A DNA stretch of 64,000 nucleotides from Cellulomonas pakistanensis. Lineage in GTDB: Bacteria; Actinomycetota; Actinomycetes; Actinomycetales; Cellulomonadaceae. Every line of letters starts with the position of its first letter. Position 1 is the stretch's first letter. The translations under genes were made by a program, and so were the position numbers. The notes under the pieces were generated by a model, which did not search any database, was not told the DNA's origin, and saw only the letters and a list, made by a program, of their open reading frames with translations. The stretch spans positions 96,276-160,275 of the forward strand of contig NZ_BONO01000005.1 in NCBI RefSeq assembly GCF_016862755.1. Reading direction: 5' to 3'. Of the stretch, positions 57,273 to 64,000 are shown in pieces.

Positions 57273-59003
57273 TCATGGTGCCAGATCCGCCAGCTCCAGG
57301 AGCTCGGCTGCGTGTGCGCGCGCCGTGTCGGACTCCTCCTGGCCGGAGAGCATCCGCGCGAGCTCGCGCACCCGGTCCTCCCCCGTCACCTCGCCGACGC
57401 CGGACGCGGTGATCGCGCCGTCGCGGGACTTGGTGACCACGAGGTGCCGGTCGGCGAACGCGGCGACCTGCGCCAGGTGCGTCACCACCAGGACCTGCGA
57501 ACCCCGTGCCAGCGCGGCCAGACGGCGCCCGACCTCGGTCGCGGCACGCCCGCCGACCCCGGCGTCGACCTCGTCGAAGACGAACGTCCCGGGGGTGTGC
57601 TCCCCCCGGTCGGGCGACGTCGCGAGGGCCACCTCGAGGGCCAGCATCACCCGGGACAGCTCGCCGCCGGAGGCCCCCTTGCCCAGCGGGCGGGCCGGCG
57701 CGCCCGCGTGCGGGACCAGGAGCATCTCCACGACATCTCCACCGTGCGGGCCGAGCTCGGGCGCGTCGTCGACCCGCACGGTGAGGCTGGCCCCGCCCAT
57801 CGCGAGCCCGGCCAGCTCCGCGGAGACGGTCGCGGCGAGCCGCTCGGCGGCCTCGCGCCGTGCCGCGCCGACCCGGCCGGCCAGGTCGGCGAGCCGAGCG
57901 TCGAGGGCGTCCCGCTCGGCCGTGAGCTCCGCGACCTTCTCGTCGCCGTCGCCGATGTCGAGCAGCCGGCGGCCGCTCTCCTCGGCCCAGCGCAGCACCG
58001 CGGCGACGTCCTCGCCGTACGACCGGGTCAGCGACGCGAGCTCCGCGCGCCGGGTCTGCGCGGCGTCGAGCCGCAGCGGGTCGGCCTGCAGGTCCTGCAG
58101 GTACGAGGACAGCTCGGTGGCGGCGTCCGCGAGCAGGTAGCCGGCCTCGGCGACCCGGCCGCGCAGCTCGGCGAGCCGCGCGTCGTGCTCGCCCGCCGCG
58201 TCCAGCAGCCGCCGGGCGTGCTCGACGAGCGCGGCGGCGTTCGCGCCCGCGTCGGGGGCGTCCTCGTCGCCGAGCAGGGCGGCGTGCGCCCCCGTGGCGG
58301 CGGCGCGCAGGTCCTCGGCGTGCTCCAGCCGGACGATCTCCTGCGCGAGGTCGTCGTCCTCCCCCGGCTGCGGGTCGACCCGCTCGACCTCGGCCAGGCC
58401 CAGGCGCAGCAGCTCGGCCTCGCGGGCGAGGTCCTGCCGGCGGGCGGTCAGGTCGTCGATGGTCGCCTGCAGGCGGCCGCGCTCCGCCCAGGCCTGCCGG
58501 TACTCGGCCAGCAGGGCGCCGTGCGCCGCCCCCGCGAACGCGTCGAGCGCCTCGCGCTGGTGCTGCGGCGACCGCAGCCGGGCCTGGTCCTGCTGCCCGT
58601 GCACCGTGATGAGCTGCTCCGCGAGCTCGCCGAGCACCGCCTGCGGCACCGAGCGGCCGCCCAGGTGCGCGCGGGACCGCCCGGGGCTGCCGTCGGTCGA
58701 CGCGGACACCGTGCGGACCAGCAGCAGGCCGCCGTCGTCGTCGACCGCCGCGCCCGCCTCCTCCGCCCGCGCGAGCACCGGCGAGCCGTCCGGCACGACG
58801 ACCCGGCCCTCGACCACCGCGGTCGAGGCGCCGGTCCGCACCGTCGCCGGGTCGGCCTTGCCACCGAGCAGCAGGTTCAGCCCGGTCAGCACCATCGTCT
58901 TGCCGGCGCCGGTCTCGCCCGTCAGGACGGTCAGGCCCGGGTGCAGCCGGATCTGGGCGCCGGTGATGACGCCCAGGTCGCTGATCGTGATCTCCTCGAA
59001 CAC
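57273..59003 (-). CDS. recN: DNA repair protein RecN
   Basis: This 576-residue SMC-like ATPase of double-strand-break repair has Walker A GETGAGKTMVL near residue 30, a central coiled coil interrupted by the head-proximal hinge-like region, signature KGASGGELSRVMLALE, and Walker B TFVFDEVDAGVGGRAATEVGRRL followed by VLVVTHLAQVAAFAD. GTG 59003 lies downstream of GAGGGGGCGGA. I see no clear LexA box upstream, and the gene is inside an operon with nadK and steA. Confidence 0.94.
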   Translation of the reverse strand: MFEEITISDLGVITGAQIRLHPGLTVLTGETGAGKTMVLTGLNLLLGGKADPATVRTGASTAVVEGRVVVPDGSPVLARAEEAGAAVDDDGGLLLVRTVSASTDGSPGRSRAHLGGRSVPQAVLGELAEQLITVHGQQDQARLRSPQHQREALDAFAGAAHGALLAEYRQAWAERGRLQATIDDLTARRQDLAREAELLRLGLAEVERVDPQPGEDDDLAQEIVRLEHAEDLRAAATGAHAALLGDEDAPDAGANAAALVEHARRLLDAAGEHDARLAELRGRVAEAGYLLADAATELSSYLQDLQADPLRLDAAQTRRAELASLTRSYGEDVAAVLRWAEESGRRLLDIGDGDEKVAELTAERDALDARLADLAGRVGAARREAAERLAATVSAELAGLAMGGASLTVRVDDAPELGPHGGDVVEMLLVPHAGAPARPLGKGASGGELSRVMLALEVALATSPDRGEHTPGTFVFDEVDAGVGGRAATEVGRRLAALARGSQVLVVTHLAQVAAFADRHLVVTKSRDGAITASGVGEVTGEDRVRELARMLSGQEESDTARAHAAELLELADLAP

Positions 59004-59019: not shown

Positions 59020-59934
59020 TCAGTCCTCGTCGGCCGGCGCGCGGGTGGCGCCGATCCCCCGGTCGCGCGCCGGGGTCTCCGTCGCGCGCCCGCGCCAGCC
59101 GACCACGGGCAGCGCGAACTTGTTCACCAGCCGGTCCGTGAACGGCGCCGGCGTGAGCCGGGCCAGCCTGACCGGCACCGGCGACCGGCGCACCTCGACG
59201 CGCGAGCCGGCGGGCACCTCGATGCGGCGGCGGCCGTCGCAGACCAGCACCGCCGGGGACGGCGACCGGGTCAGCACCTCGACCGCGATCACGCTGCGCG
59301 GCCCCACGACCAGCGGGCGTGCGAACAGCGCGTGCGCGGACAGCGGCACCACGATGAGGCTGTCGACCTCGGGCCACACGACCGGGCCGCCCGCGGAGAA
59401 CGCGTGCGCGGTGGATCCCGTGGACGTCGCCAGCACCACGCCGTCGCAGCCGAAGCTGGACAGCGGGCGGTCGTCGACCTCGAGCACGACCTCGACCATG
59501 CGCGCCGGCTCGGCCTTCTCCAGCGCGGCCTCGTTCAGCGCCCAGCCGGTCACCGGGTCCCGCCGGCCGGGCACCTGGACCTGCACCTGGAGCGTCGTGC
59601 GCTCCTCGACGGTGTAGTCGCCCGCCGCGATCCGGCGCACGGCCTCCTTGATGTCGTCCCGCTCGCTCTCCGCGAGGAACCCGACGTGCCCGAGGTTGAT
59701 GCCGAGCAGCGGGACGCCCGCGGCGCGCGCGAGCTCCGCGGCGCGCAGGATCGTGCCGTCGCCGCCGAGGATCATCGCCAGCTCGATGTCGTGGAACGCC
59801 ATGCCGGGGACGTCCTCGCCCGCGAGCACGGGCGTGAACCCGGCCGCGGACAGCGCCGCGGCGGCCTCCTCGGTCGCCGTCACCGCCTCCGGACGCCCGC
59901 TGTGCGTGACGACCAGGACCCGCCTGCTGCTCAT
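59020..59934 (-). CDS. nadK: NAD kinase
   Basis: This 304-residue enzyme phosphorylates NAD to NADP. It has VLVVTHSGRPEAV near the start, the catalytic GGDGT in LAMILGGDGTILRAAEL (about 54-70), GINLGHVGFLAE, the NE motif in GWALNEAALEK, and DGVVLATSTGSTAHAFSAGGP. The basic C-terminal tail of about 30 residues is longer than usual. The ATG overlaps the tlyA stop (ATGA). The tlyA-nadK-recN order is conserved widely. Confidence 0.95.
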   Translation of the reverse strand: MSSRRVLVVTHSGRPEAVTATEEAAAALSAAGFTPVLAGEDVPGMAFHDIELAMILGGDGTILRAAELARAAGVPLLGINLGHVGFLAESERDDIKEAVRRIAAGDYTVEERTTLQVQVQVPGRRDPVTGWALNEAALEKAEPARMVEVVLEVDDRPLSSFGCDGVVLATSTGSTAHAFSAGGPVVWPEVDSLIVVPLSAHALFARPLVVGPRSVIAVEVLTRSPSPAVLVCDGRRRIEVPAGSRVEVRRSPVPVRLARLTPAPFTDRLVNKFALPVVGWRGRATETPARDRGIGATRAPADED

Positions 59935-60764
59935 GCGCTCTCCTCCTGCTCCGTGACCACGGCCTCGACCCGGGCCACCAGCGCGGCGCCCGCCAGGGCG
60001 CCGCCGGCCCGACCCGCCCCGCGGCGCAGCCACAGGAAGTACTCCACGTTCCCGCTCGGACCGGGCAGCGGGCTGCGCGCCACGCCGCCGACCTCGAGCC
60101 CCTGCTCCTCCGCCGCCGCGGCGACCGCCAGCACCGCCTCGACCCGCTGCGCGGCGCTGCGCACCACGCCGCCCGAGCCCAGCCGCTCCCGGCCGACCTC
60201 GAACTGCGGTTTCACCATCAGCACGAGGTCCGCGGCCGGGGCCGCGACGGCCGCCAGCGCGGGCACGACCAGGGTGAGCGAGATGAACGACAGGTCCGCG
60301 ACGACGAGCCCCGGCGCCGGGTCCACGTCGCCCTGAGCGAGGTACCGGACGTTCACGCCCTCGCGGAGGTCGACCCGGGGGTCGGCGCGCAGCCGCTCGA
60401 CGAGCTGGTCGTGGCCGACGTCCACCGCGACCACGCGGCGCGCCCCGCGGCGCAGCAGCACGTCGGTGAACCCGCCGGTGCTCGCGCCCGCGTCCAGGCA
60501 CTCGCGGCCCTCGACCACGACACCCGGGAACGCGTCCAGGGCGCCGAGCAGCTTGTGCGCGCCGCGCGAGGCCCAGTCGTCGCCCGCCGTCCCGTCCGGG
60601 CCCGGCTCGACGCGCGCGTGCTGGCCGTCGCCGAGCGGGGCGGCGGCCCGCCGCACGGGCGCTCCGTCCACCGTCACCCGGCCGGCCGCGATGAGCTCGG
60701 CGGCGTGCTTCCGCGACCGGGCGAGCCCGTCGCGGACGAGGGCGGCGTCGACGCGCGTCGGCAC
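59931..60764 (-). CDS. tlyA: TlyA-family rRNA 2'-O-methyltransferase
   Basis: This 277-residue protein has an N-terminal S4 RNA-binding domain (MPTRVDAALVRDGLARSRKHAAELIAAGRVTVDGAPVRRA) and an FtsJ-like methyltransferase domain: RGAHKLLGALDAFPG, CLDAGASTGGFTDVLLRRGARRVVAVDVGHDQL, and VLMVKPQFEVGRERLG. TlyA methylates 16S and/or 23S rRNA in mycobacteria, where its loss gives capreomycin resistance. The GTG start lies 3 nt after the stop of a small gene. Confidence 0.94.
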   Translation of the reverse strand: MPTRVDAALVRDGLARSRKHAAELIAAGRVTVDGAPVRRAAAPLGDGQHARVEPGPDGTAGDDWASRGAHKLLGALDAFPGVVVEGRECLDAGASTGGFTDVLLRRGARRVVAVDVGHDQLVERLRADPRVDLREGVNVRYLAQGDVDPAPGLVVADLSFISLTLVVPALAAVAAPAADLVLMVKPQFEVGRERLGSGGVVRSAAQRVEAVLAVAAAAEEQGLEVGGVARSPLPGPSGNVEYFLWLRRGAGRAGGALAGAALVARVEAVVTEQEESA

Positions 60765-60767
60765 CCG

Positions 60768-60911
60768 CTAGCCCTCCGCGTCGGCGAGCCGGTCCTGCAG
60801 GGCCGCGTGCACGGCGTCGAACACGGCGAGCTGCTCGCGCAGGCTGAGCTCGGTGACCTCGGTCAGGCGGAGGACCGCCTGGTCCACCGCCTGGTCGCCC
60901 GTCGGCTCCAC
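60768..60911 (-). CDS. Small conserved-position protein (Rv1693-like slot)
   Basis: A 47-codon gene reading VEPTGDQAVDQAVLRL and on to LREQLAVFDAVHAALQDRLADAEG, ending TAG 3 nt before tlyA. A GGGGAGTGGAG Shine-Dalgarno-like stretch precedes its GTG. It is acidic and predicted to be all helix. In mycobacteria a similarly short unnamed protein (Rv1693) sits in the same slot between the HAD gene and tlyA, so this is likely real. The function is unknown. Confidence 0.7.
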   Translation of the reverse strand: MEPTGDQAVDQAVLRLTEVTELSLREQLAVFDAVHAALQDRLADAEG

Positions 60912-61037: not shown

Positions 61038-62090
61038 TTACCGGCCGGCACCCACGCCCGCGGCGTCCTCGGGGGTGACACGCAGGTCGGGCACGCTCGT
61101 CTCGTCCAGGTCCGCCCCGGCGTCCACCGCGGCCCACGCCGCCGCGCACGCCACGCGGACCAGGTCGACGCCCTGCGGCGCGGCGCCGCCGAGCTCCAGC
61201 CGCCCGCCGGCCACCCGGGCCGCGGCGTCCCCGCAGGTCCACCAGCCCTCGGCCGCCGGCACCGGCTCCGGGTGCGGGACCAGCAGGCCGCCGAGGTCCG
61301 CCGCGATGTAGTGCGGCCGCAGCGCCGGCGGCGCCAGGACGTCGTCGCGCGCCGTGCTCACGCCCGTCAGGACGTGCAGCCCGGCGAACCCGCCCGAGCG
61401 CGCGCCCGCCAGGTCCGTGTCCAGGCGGTCGCCGACCACCAGCGCCTCGCGGGCGCCGTGCCGCTCGACCGCGATCTCGTACATCGTCGACGCGGGCTTG
61501 CCCGCGCTGTCCGGAACCACGCCGGTCGCCGCCTGCACGGCCCCGACCAGCGCGCCGTTGCCCGGCGCGAAGCCCCGGGCGGTCGGCAGGCTCTTGTCCA
61601 GGTTGCTCGCGACGAACCACGCGCCGCCCGCCACCGCGTACGCGGCCTCGGCCAGCTGCGGCCAGGCGAGCTCCGGGGAGAACCCCTGCGCCACCGCCTC
61701 CGGCCGGTCGTCCGCCGACGTGACGACCTCGAAGCCCTGCTGCCGCACGGCGGTCACGAGGCCGGCGCCGCCGACGACGAGCACCTTCGCGCCCGGCTGC
61801 AGGCGGGTCGCCAGCAGCGCCGCGCAGGCCTGGGCGGCGGTCAGCACGTCGCCCGGCTCCGTCGGGATGTCGAGCGACGTGAGCTGGCCGGCGACCGACT
61901 CCGGCTCGCGGGAGGCGTTGTTCGTGACGAACACGAGGCGCATCCCCGCCGCCCGCGCGCCCGCCAGGCCGGCCGCCGCGCCCTCGATGGGCTCGTGGCC
62001 GCGGTACGCGACGCCGTCGAGGTCGACGAGGGCCAGGTCGTAGCGCTCGGCCAGCGGGGTGGCGCTGCCGAGGAGCCGGGCGTCGGTCAC
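61038..62090 (-). CDS. HAD-IIA phosphatase, Rv1692-like
   Basis: This 350-residue HAD-superfamily phosphatase of the NagD/GlpQ-like class II has motif I ALVDLDGVAYRG (about 19-30), FVTNNASREP, the Lys-containing DSAGKPASTMYEIAVERHG, and motif III ALVVGDRLDTDLAGARSGGF. The syntenic mycobacterial enzyme Rv1692 hydrolyses glycerol-3-phosphate, a role in lipid recycling that may carry over. An extra C-terminal region of about 90 residues is unassigned. The GTG start overlaps the TPR gene stop (GTGA). A 7-bp hairpin spans its TAA stop near 61028-61049. Confidence 0.9.
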   Translation of the reverse strand: MTDARLLGSATPLAERYDLALVDLDGVAYRGHEPIEGAAAGLAGARAAGMRLVFVTNNASREPESVAGQLTSLDIPTEPGDVLTAAQACAALLATRLQPGAKVLVVGGAGLVTAVRQQGFEVVTSADDRPEAVAQGFSPELAWPQLAEAAYAVAGGAWFVASNLDKSLPTARGFAPGNGALVGAVQAATGVVPDSAGKPASTMYEIAVERHGAREALVVGDRLDTDLAGARSGGFAGLHVLTGVSTARDDVLAPPALRPHYIAADLGGLLVPHPEPVPAAEGWWTCGDAAARVAGGRLELGGAAPQGVDLVRVACAAAWAAVDAGADLDETSVPDLRVTPEDAAGVGAGR

Positions 62091-64000
62091 GCGTCCTCCT
62101 GCTCGCCCGCCGGGGCGGGGGTGGTGTCGGTGTCGTCGGGCTCGGCGTCGGTCGCGGGCTCGGCGTCGGTCGCGGGGTCGGTGCCCAGGTCGTCCGCGTC
62201 GGGCTCGGCGGCCGCGTCGGCCGTCTCCGGCTCGTCGTCCGCGTCGTCCGCCTCGGGCTCGGCGCCGGCGAGCTCGTCCGTCTCGTCGTCCGCGTCGTCG
62301 GTCTCGTCCGCGTCCGCGGCGGGCGTGTCGTCGTCGTGCCCGCCCTCGTCCTCGGCCAGGTCGAAGACGACCACGTCCTCGTCGTCCTCCGCACCCTGCA
62401 CCTGCGCGAGCAGGGCCGCGGGCACGGTTGCCTCGGCGTCGTCGGCCTCCTGGGTCCGGCCGGCCGCGCGCAGCGCCTCCGCCCGGGCCTGCACCACGCG
62501 CGCCGCGAGCAGCGTGCGGACGGGCCCGGAGCCGATCCCGGCGAGCGCGGCGATCGCCGCGTCCGGGTCACCCATGTCGAGGCGCGCCCCGCTGACGACC
62601 ATCGCGAGCTCGACCCGCGTCGTCGTGTCGAGGCCCTCGGCCTCCGGGGACGACGCCAGCGCGATAGCCCGCTCCGGCCGCCCGAGGCCGCGCTCGCAGT
62701 CGGCCATCACCGCGAGGTGCTCCGACGACCCGTTCAGCCGCCGCACGGTGCGCAGCTCGCGCAGCGCCTCGGCGAACCGACCCGTCCGGTACGCGGCCAG
62801 GCCGGCGGCCTCGCGCACCACGTCCACCCGCCCGCCGTGCCGCACCGCCGCCTGGGCGTGCTCGTAGGCGAGCTCCGGGTCCTCGTCGATCAGGCGCCCG
62901 GCCATCACCAGGTGCCGGCCGACGACGAAGGCGTTCTCCTTGCTCAGCGTGCGCAGGCGCGCCTTCACCTCGCGGTCGAGCATGCCGAACTCGACGTCCT
63001 CGGGGATCTCCGGGCCGTAGACGCGCACCGACTGCGGCGGCCGGCTCGCGCGGCGCTCGTCACCGTCCTGGCGCGGGCCGCGGTCGCCGCGCTCGAAGCC
63101 TCGGCCGCCGCGGTCCGGGCGGTCGCCGCGGTCGAACCCGCGCCCGCCCTCGCGGTCGCCGCGGTACCCGCCGCGGTCGCCCCGGTCGTCGCGTCGGTAC
63201 CCACCGCGCTCGCCGCCGCCCTGGGCGCCCTCGCGCCCGCGGTAGCCGCCGCGCTCCTCGCGCTGGTACCCGCCGCGGTCGCCCCGGTCGTCGCGTCGGT
63301 ACCCACCGCGCTCGTCGCCGCCCTGGGAGCCACCACGGTCGTCCCGGCGGAACCCGCCGCCCTGGCCACCCGCGGCACCCGCGCGCTCGTCCCGTCGGAA
63401 ACCCGGCCGCTCGCCGCGACCCTGGGTCGCGCCGCGGTCGTCGCGACGGAACCCACCGCGCTCACCGCCGCCGTGCTGGCCGCCACGGTCGTCACGGCGG
63501 AAGCCACCGCGCTCACCGCCGCCCTGGTACCCGCCACGGTCGCCGCGCGGCGCACCCTGGCGGTCGGCGCGGTATCCGCCGCGGTCGTCCCGCCGCTCGC
63601 CGCCCGCGCCCGCACGGTCGCCACGCCCGGACCCGGTGCGGTCCGAGCGGTACGCGCGCTCGCCGCCGTCGGCGTCACGCCGGGGACCGCCGGTACGAGC
63701 GCCGGACTGGCCGTAGCCGCCGGAGCGCTCGCCGCCCTCGGCGCCACGGCGGTAGGCGCCCTCGCGCCGGTCGCGGAAGCCACCCCGCTCGCCGCCCCGC
63801 GCCTCCCCGCGCGGGCCGCCCCGGTCGTCGCGAGCCGGACCGCGCTCCGAGCGGTACCCACCCGAGCGCTCGCCACCCTGCGGACGTTCGGAACGGTACC
63901 CACCAGAACGCTCGCCACTCTGGGGGCGCTCAGGACGGTACCCACCAGAACGCTCGCCACCCTGGGGACGGGCGGAGCGGTCACCACCGGAGCGCTCGCG
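62087..64000 (-). CDS. RGG-repeat/TPR/acidic-tail protein, N-terminus outside window
   Basis: The frame is open from the right edge to the TGA at 62087, giving at least 637 residues. Residues about 1-320 of the visible part are low complexity: repeats of the type GGERGGYRRDDRG with roughly 15 RGG tripeptides spaced by Tyr or Phe, nearly all Gly, Arg, Asp, Glu and aromatic. From VRVYGPEIPEDVEFGMLDREVKARLRTL (63028) starts a TPR-like helical core of about 200 residues that matches the Rv1691-type protein (AGRLIDEDPELAYEHAQAAV, REAAGLAAYRTGRF). The last roughly 100 residues are very rich in Asp and Glu. An internal GTG at 63028 could start a shorter protein without the RGG part. RNA binding or condensate formation is inferred. 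Confidence 0.8.
   Translation of the reverse strand, partial: RERSGGDRSARPQGGERSGGYRPERPQSGERSGGYRSERPQGGERSGGYRSERGPARDDRGGPRGEARGGERGGFRDRREGAYRRGAEGGERSGGYGQSGARTGGPRRDADGGERAYRSDRTGSGRGDRAGAGGERRDDRGGYRADRQGAPRGDRGGYQGGGERGGFRRDDRGGQHGGGERGGFRRDDRGATQGRGERPGFRRDERAGAAGGQGGGFRRDDRGGSQGGDERGGYRRDDRGDRGGYQREERGGYRGREGAQGGGERGGYRRDDRGDRGGYRGDREGGRGFDRGDRPDRGGRGFERGDRGPRQDGDERRASRPPQSVRVYGPEIPEDVEFGMLDREVKARLRTLSKENAFVVGRHLVMAGRLIDEDPELAYEHAQAAVRHGGRVDVVREAAGLAAYRTGRFAEALRELRTVRRLNGSSEHLAVMADCERGLGRPERAIALASSPEAEGLDTTTRVELAMVVSGARLDMGDPDAAIAALAGIGSGPVRTLLAARVVQARAEALRAAGRTQEADDAEATVPAALLAQVQGAEDDEDVVVFDLAEDEGGHDDDTPAADADETDDADDETDELAGAEPEADDADDEPETADAAAEPDADDLGTDPATDAEPATDAEPDDTDTTPAPAGEQEDA
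63029..64000 (-). repeat. Degenerate Gly-Arg repeat coding region
   Basis: At the DNA level short words such as GGTGGGTACCG, CGCGACGACCG and GGCGGCGAGCGC recur many times with irregular spacing. The array continues past the window edge, so its full length is unknown. Confidence 0.85.

Follow-up and report, generated by a model that had tools for sequence, protein, structure and literature searches.

The closest described counterparts of the gene considered here are mycobacterial. A gene annotated as encoding a tetratricopeptide repeat (TPR) protein, Rv1691, is followed there by a haloacid dehalogenase (HAD) gene, a small open reading frame (ORF; Rv1693), tlyA, ppnK/nadK and recN (PMC3072309), and the mycobacterial rRNA operon rrnB sits downstream of tyrS (PMC10218544). 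MSMEG_3754, given as the Rv1691 orthologue and annotated as a TPR protein, was listed with high confidence among the proteins recovered with RNA polymerase β, and its own pull-down recovered no DNA (PMC7092591). In a 64,000-nucleotide stretch of Cellulomonas pakistanensis DNA (hereafter the window), the order TPR-HAD-small ORF-tlyA-nadK-recN is that of the Rv1691-type cluster, and the TPR protein carries both a long arm rich in Arg, Gly and aromatic residues and an acidic tail.

The frame that encodes this protein runs on the minus strand from 64000 to a TGA at 62089-62087 and comprises 637 codons without a stop, in agreement with a preliminary description made from the letters of the window, which had also recognized that an RGG-Y/F arm, a TPR core and an acidic tail are joined in one protein. 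The function that we favour, tentatively and at slightly less than an even chance, is that of an RNA-binding scaffold on newly made rRNA, acting in rRNA synthesis or assembly. What leads to this reading is the adjacency of the gene to the rRNA operon in relatives, the presence of tlyA in the same cluster, the co-purification of the mycobacterial orthologue with RNA polymerase and the occurrence of R/G-armed RNA enzymes in the same genome.

The visible arm, which consists of the 324 residues upstream of GTG 63028, contains 82 Arg (25%), 99 Gly (31%), 33 Asp and 26 Glu (together 18%), as well as 13 Tyr and 7 Phe (together 6%), and is completely devoid of Lys, Leu, Ile, Val, Met, Cys, Trp and Asn. 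When its residues were shuffled 5000 times, RGG occurred 7.6 times on average and at most 18 times, so that the 15 copies observed largely follow composition and lie moderately above it; the 15 copies of GG[YF] (shuffle mean 1.84, maximum 8) are, on the other hand, far above it. These counts bear out the repeats that had been claimed for the arm, whereas its description as basic does not hold, as Asp and Glu offset most of the Arg and leave a net charge of +0.07 per residue. The same holds among relatives: in the 83 of 119 loci with a start found and an arm of at least 150 residues, net charge is +0.076 per residue with a standard deviation of 0.014, compared to the 0.068 that independent variation would give, and the R+K and D+E contents are tightly linked (r = 0.957). 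This link persists when relatedness is taken into account (r = 0.90 over 86 phylogenetic contrasts, from 87 of the 119 loci with an arm of at least 100 residues and a tail of 10-260 residues, one duplicate core having been removed). Lys makes up 1.4% of the 83 arms on average, being absent from 38 of them and reaching 10.9% in some relatives.

The arm is thus a charge-tuned mixed-charge element and not a strongly basic one. Its clustered RGG/RG motifs and aromatic spacers are those of an RGG box or glycine/arginine-rich (GAR) region, with RGG density falling near zero in some relatives; at the same time, the prevalence of Arg over Lys, the near balance with Asp/Glu and the small positive net charge are those of Arg-enriched mixed-charge domains, so that the whole resembles such domains (PMC9324279) crossed with an RGG/GAR box. 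Matches between relatives' arms and the Pfam family PF23348 (RDM3_C) were taken to reflect composition, although one protein (P0048) passes the family cut-off. The arm of locus L052 is made almost entirely of RPSGDRPSYGDRS-type tandem units and has hardly any RGG, yet its net charge is +0.06 per residue. The near-fixed ratio of Arg to Asp/Glu, kept in arms whose sequence drifts in other respects, is an instance of selection acting on the bulk charge of a bacterial region that is presumably disordered, and is directly testable.

Codon patterns show that the arm is translated and that selection acts on it at the protein level. In 16 pairs of relatives, chosen for alignable arms (at least 60% amino acid identity over at least 100 codons, a choice that favours conserved arms), differences at codon positions 1, 2 and 3 number 699, 652 and 2308, synonymous changes exceed nonsynonymous ones (1668 versus 1130), and an alignment that took no account of codons has 258 gaps, of which 206 have lengths divisible by three. 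The third-position excess and the three-base gaps largely refute the view that the arm is functionless coding DNA grown by slippage in a GC-rich genome, which we consider very unlikely. This view would account for the wide range of arm lengths among close relatives and for the recurrence of arm units in tandem, and it draws on the scarcity of stop codons in GC-rich DNA: of the two alternative frames of the arm DNA, one is stop-free as well, with an Ala-rich composition, so that openness alone is no proof of coding. It fits poorly, however, with the absence of Lys from so many arms, their near-constant net charge and the presence of the arm in several families. A frameshift or assembly artefact was rejected on the basis of the same codon-position patterns and of relatives with complete genomes.

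By sequence comparison, the arm-core-tail protein is widespread in Actinomycetes and not a local oddity. Its core is present in 77 of 81 genomes of the same genus and in 149 of 396 genomes of a phylum sample, 37 of the latter being others of the same order or class (all with E ≤1e-39); the nearest named relatives are mostly Cellulomonas. Among the four genomes of the genus without a match, an assembly break explains the case of G065, whose HAD gene begins 180 bases from a contig end, while G034, G071 and G075 gave neither a core match nor a close match to the HAD neighbour, reflecting either loss or an assembly gap. All 19 complete relatives (L042-L060) have arms of 353-654 residues, and arms of a few hundred residues are also found in Streptomyces-like genomes, Arthrobacter, Curtobacterium, Demequina, Nocardiopsis, Glutamicibacter and others. 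Genomes that resemble mycobacteria (this label and that of the Streptomyces-like group were inferred) match the window core at 46-49% identity and have an Arg-rich lead of only ~40-80 residues, with a 17-residue stretch after the core as tail. The fusion of an exotic arm to an otherwise arm-less mycobacterial core, as originally proposed, is therefore not what the genomes contain: long arms are common in Actinomycetes, and the mycobacteria-like proteins have a short Arg-rich lead of their own. In this survey, 12 further loci were truncated to 1.5 kb or less, and one locus (L037) has masked or unreadable stretches. One genome (G294) has two equal-scoring copies of the core, at C1:2619045-2619620 and C1:960228-960803, and the copy at locus L187 lies behind an rRNA operon. 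No known family that describes arm, core and tail as a whole was found, nor did the open-access literature, which leaves most subscription papers outside its coverage, yield a paper on the RGG-armed form.

Among 119 loci compared by BLAST, the order tyrS, 16S-23S-5S, TPR gene, HAD, tlyA, nadK, recN recurs on one strand. Where at least 6 kb of upstream sequence are available, 23S and 5S lie upstream on the same strand in 47 of 51 loci (19/19 from the complete Cellulomonas group, 12/15 named loci and 16/17 from the phylum sample), and the end of the rRNA is less than 1 kb from the chosen start in 43. The remaining 68 loci have shorter upstream sequence; 30 of them show a piece of rRNA, and in 62 the sequence runs out less than 2.5 kb from the core, which fits an assembly broken by the repeated rRNA operon. 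Rfam models identified 16S, 23S and 5S genes in each of the seven relatives to which they were applied, and the distance from the 5S end to the start is 171-828 bases (to the ATG) in the 19 complete relatives, 97-130 in four Streptomyces-like loci and 105-123 in three mycobacteria-like ones. On the far side, tyrS was seen in 10 of the 17 phylum-sample loci and may lie beyond the stretch in the rest; downstream, the HAD gene and tlyA are each found in 117 of 119 loci. A link to RNA had previously been suggested from the position of the gene in front of tlyA. The two do belong to the same cluster, with the HAD gene and a 47-codon ORF between them, and the link is better founded on the rRNA operon next door in relatives than on tlyA alone. 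A word search for TPR in PMC10218544 gave no occurrence, and the open-access literature beyond the cited papers, most subscription papers being outside its coverage, offered nothing on the rRNA position of the gene.

Despite its position behind the operon, the gene likely has a promoter of its own. In 76 of the 76 loci that have 5S within 6 kb, a hairpin of -18 kcal/mol or better forms within 75 bases after the 5S gene, compared to 4 of 76 in simple shuffles, and all 19 complete loci (L042-L060) have a conserved, promoter-like element close to GATGAGACCATG placed 35-44 bases before the ATG, where shuffles would give 0.16, the pattern having been derived from the same 19 sequences. Together, hairpin and element suggest a rRNA terminator followed by a separate promoter, and co-transcription with the rRNA is not favoured; at least three T within the 8 bases after the hairpin are found in only 31 of 76 loci, and those with few T leave read-through possible. 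In the same 19 loci, an in-frame ATG preceded by a GAGGAG or GGGGAG Shine-Dalgarno site lies 353-654 codons upstream of the core, a count that is descriptive because the pattern was written after the loci had been viewed. Near the core, the presence of a start codon varies among relatives, and a good number of loci lack one altogether (L058 and L178-L182, for instance). GTG 63028, which had been put forward as an alternative start, was accordingly rejected in favour of the shared upstream ATG, as it has no consistent counterpart.

In C. pakistanensis itself, the gene is truncated at its 5' end because window base 64000, which corresponds to base 160275 of contig C5, is the last base of that contig; its true start sits in an assembly gap. 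Extension past this point, suggested in the preliminary description, thus finds no sequence in the contig itself, and it is the complete relatives that show the in-frame ATG upstream. Queried with the 5' region of the gene from a close relative, the own genome returned the known arm and weak scattered pieces only, and a protein query of this genome gave no further copies of the arm. The tyrS gene lies near the end of contig C33, with no rRNA seen by Rfam in the stretch taken around it; since tyrS marks the far side of the rRNA operon in relatives, the simplest reading, inferred from synteny, places the rRNA operon, together with the beginning of the TPR gene, in the gap that separates C33 from C5.

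Features of the TPR gene and its neighbours in the window
Feature	Position	Strand	Remark
RGG-arm TPR protein, visible open frame	62087..64000	-	637 codons; 5' end cut by contig end
Arg/Gly/Asp/Tyr-rich mixed-charge arm	63029..64000	-	324 aa visible
Conserved core	62336..63028	-	predicted all-helical TPR fold
Acidic tail	62087..62335	-	82 aa
HAD-IIA type phosphatase gene	61038..62090	-	GTG overlaps TGA of TPR gene
47-codon ORF between HAD gene and tlyA	60768..60911	-	at the place of Rv1693 by position only
tlyA, rRNA methyltransferase gene	59931..60764	-	named from the preliminary description and gene order
nadK (ppnK)-like gene	59020..59934	-	start read from sequence
recN-like gene	57273..59003	-	

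The core is predicted to adopt a TPR-type solenoid of helical pairs, based on an AlphaFold2 model (pLDDT 92.1, pTM 0.85) whose best Foldseek match is a consensus TPR; the matches are generic TPR proteins, with no function named and no specific relative prominent. Other searches remained below threshold or empty: Pfam TPR models stay under their gathering score (TPR_16, 18.5-19.9 bits versus 32.7), NCBIfam gave a single weak match under its cut-off, PADLOC nothing at E 0.01, and a search of PDB sequences with the core profile reached a best E of 0.081. The C-terminus is as acidic as had been stated, with 45% Asp+Glu and no Arg or Lys in its last 82 residues. The idea that arm and tail are tuned to each other was rejected, for the raw correlation between their total charges (r = -0.42) vanishes over the 86 contrasts (+0.15, not significant).

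If the core is a platform for another protein, a candidate partner is the product of the next gene. The TPR core might primarily bind or position the HAD-IIA enzyme, with the arm setting localization or solubility and any RNA contact being incidental; this we judge unlikely, though well short of negligible. It is consistent with the overlap between the HAD gene and the TPR stop codon, with the conservation of this neighbour and with the fusion of the two proteins in 9 of 120 listed homologues according to their Pfam domains (P0081, P0114 and P0116 among them), as well as in loci L085 and L094, where the arm is nearly absent. Most homologues are unfused, however, and an arrangement centred on the phosphatase does not account for a long arm under selection, the charge ratio of that arm, the rRNA address or the co-purification with RNA polymerase.

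R/G-rich stretches are not unique to the TPR protein in its own genome, where 8 of 20 loci of RNA enzymes were read. The three best DEAD-box helicase matches (L198, L199 and L200) have R/G-rich C-terminal tails, and the single rRNA pseudouridine synthase match (L217, C2:17596-18069 with flanks) has a Gly/Arg/Tyr-rich N-terminal arm of more than 100 residues; all of these stretches are shorter than the arm of the TPR protein. Four further DEAD-family matches comprise L203, which we take to be Ski2-like and which has an internal R/G-rich insert, L202 and L204, which have none, and L201, with an R-rich stretch before its likely start. Arg-rich low-complexity regions have been described as enriched for RNA-binding terms in bacteria (PMC6821194).

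As an RNA scaffold, the protein would use its Arg/Gly/Tyr arm to make many weak contacts with RNA. The TPR core would bind a partner, perhaps the HAD protein encoded next to it, and competition from the acidic tail for the arm would lead to RNA release or reversible self-association. In this way, pre-rRNA and RNA polymerase would be brought together with maturation enzymes (TlyA, an RluB-like synthase and DEAD helicases) while rRNA is being synthesized.

Several observations weigh against such a role. With 18% Asp+Glu, the arm is on paper a weaker RNA binder than a pure RGG box; the lack of charge covariation between arm and tail speaks against a finely tuned switch; HAD fusions point to a different partner; and the mycobacterial relatives, to which the RNA polymerase data belong, carry only a short arm. 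The orthologue is also listed with ClpC1 (PMC10433963) and may simply be sticky. Proximity to rRNA is not required for the gene, since three of the 51 loci (L134, L161 and L186) have neither 23S nor 5S upstream and five have the rRNA more than 1 kb from the start, and it could be inherited gene order. The last possibility is part of another explanation, in which the protein is a general factor of RNA polymerase or nascent mRNA, Nus-like or polymerase-clustering, that owes its rRNA address to ancestry. The co-purification of MSMEG_3754 with RNA polymerase β and the persistence of the core in the three loci without a nearby operon argue for it; the affinity purification-mass spectrometry set, on the other hand, comprises 275 proteins and is not specific (PMC7092591), and the rRNA neighbour is kept in 16 of the 17 phylum-sample loci against 10 for tyrS, some of which may lie outside the stretch. 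On balance, we hold a general polymerase factor to be improbable, although it deserves serious attention.

A bolder version of the RNA scaffold, which we regard as quite unlikely, would give actinobacteria an equivalent of a nucleolar organiser. Made at the rRNA operon itself, this protein with its GAR-like arm would form condensates with RNA polymerase and with pre-rRNA as it is synthesized, recruit RNA enzymes that have matching R/G arms (the RluB-type synthase and DEAD helicases), and be set free by its acidic tail. In E. coli, RNA polymerase and rRNA operons are reported to cluster as a nucleolus-like body, with the factor that holds it together being unsettled; the TPR protein is a concrete candidate for holding such clusters together, and one that can be deleted and tagged.

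Compared to described systems, the protein is closest to Rv1691/MSMEG_3754, with which it shares gene order and TPR annotation (PMC3072309, PMC7092591), but the lead of ~40-80 residues and the 17-residue tail stretch of the mycobacteria-like relatives contrast with the hundreds of residues found here. TPR solenoids at large, including consensus TPR, MamA and others, provide no specific relative, in line with the Pfam scores under cut-off. The R/G-rich tails of DEAD-box helicases and RluB-type pseudouridine synthases, which occur in the same genome and are similar in R/G/Y, are attached to RNA enzymes, are shorter and show less Asp/Glu balance; the TPR protein, in contrast, consists for the larger part of its arm and has an acidic tail as well. 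Arg-enriched mixed-charge domains have in common with the arm the near balance of Arg and Asp and the small positive net charge (PMC9324279), and differ from it in that the arm has much Gly and regular Tyr/Phe, shares its chain with a TPR core and an acidic tail, and is bacterial. Finally, fibrillarin and other nucleolar GAR/RGG proteins likewise combine a long N-terminal Arg/Gly arm and aromatic spacers with a link to rRNA (PMC9957100); unlike them, and with no homology claimed, the protein of the window is bacterial, has no methyltransferase domain and balances the Arg of its arm with Asp and Glu.

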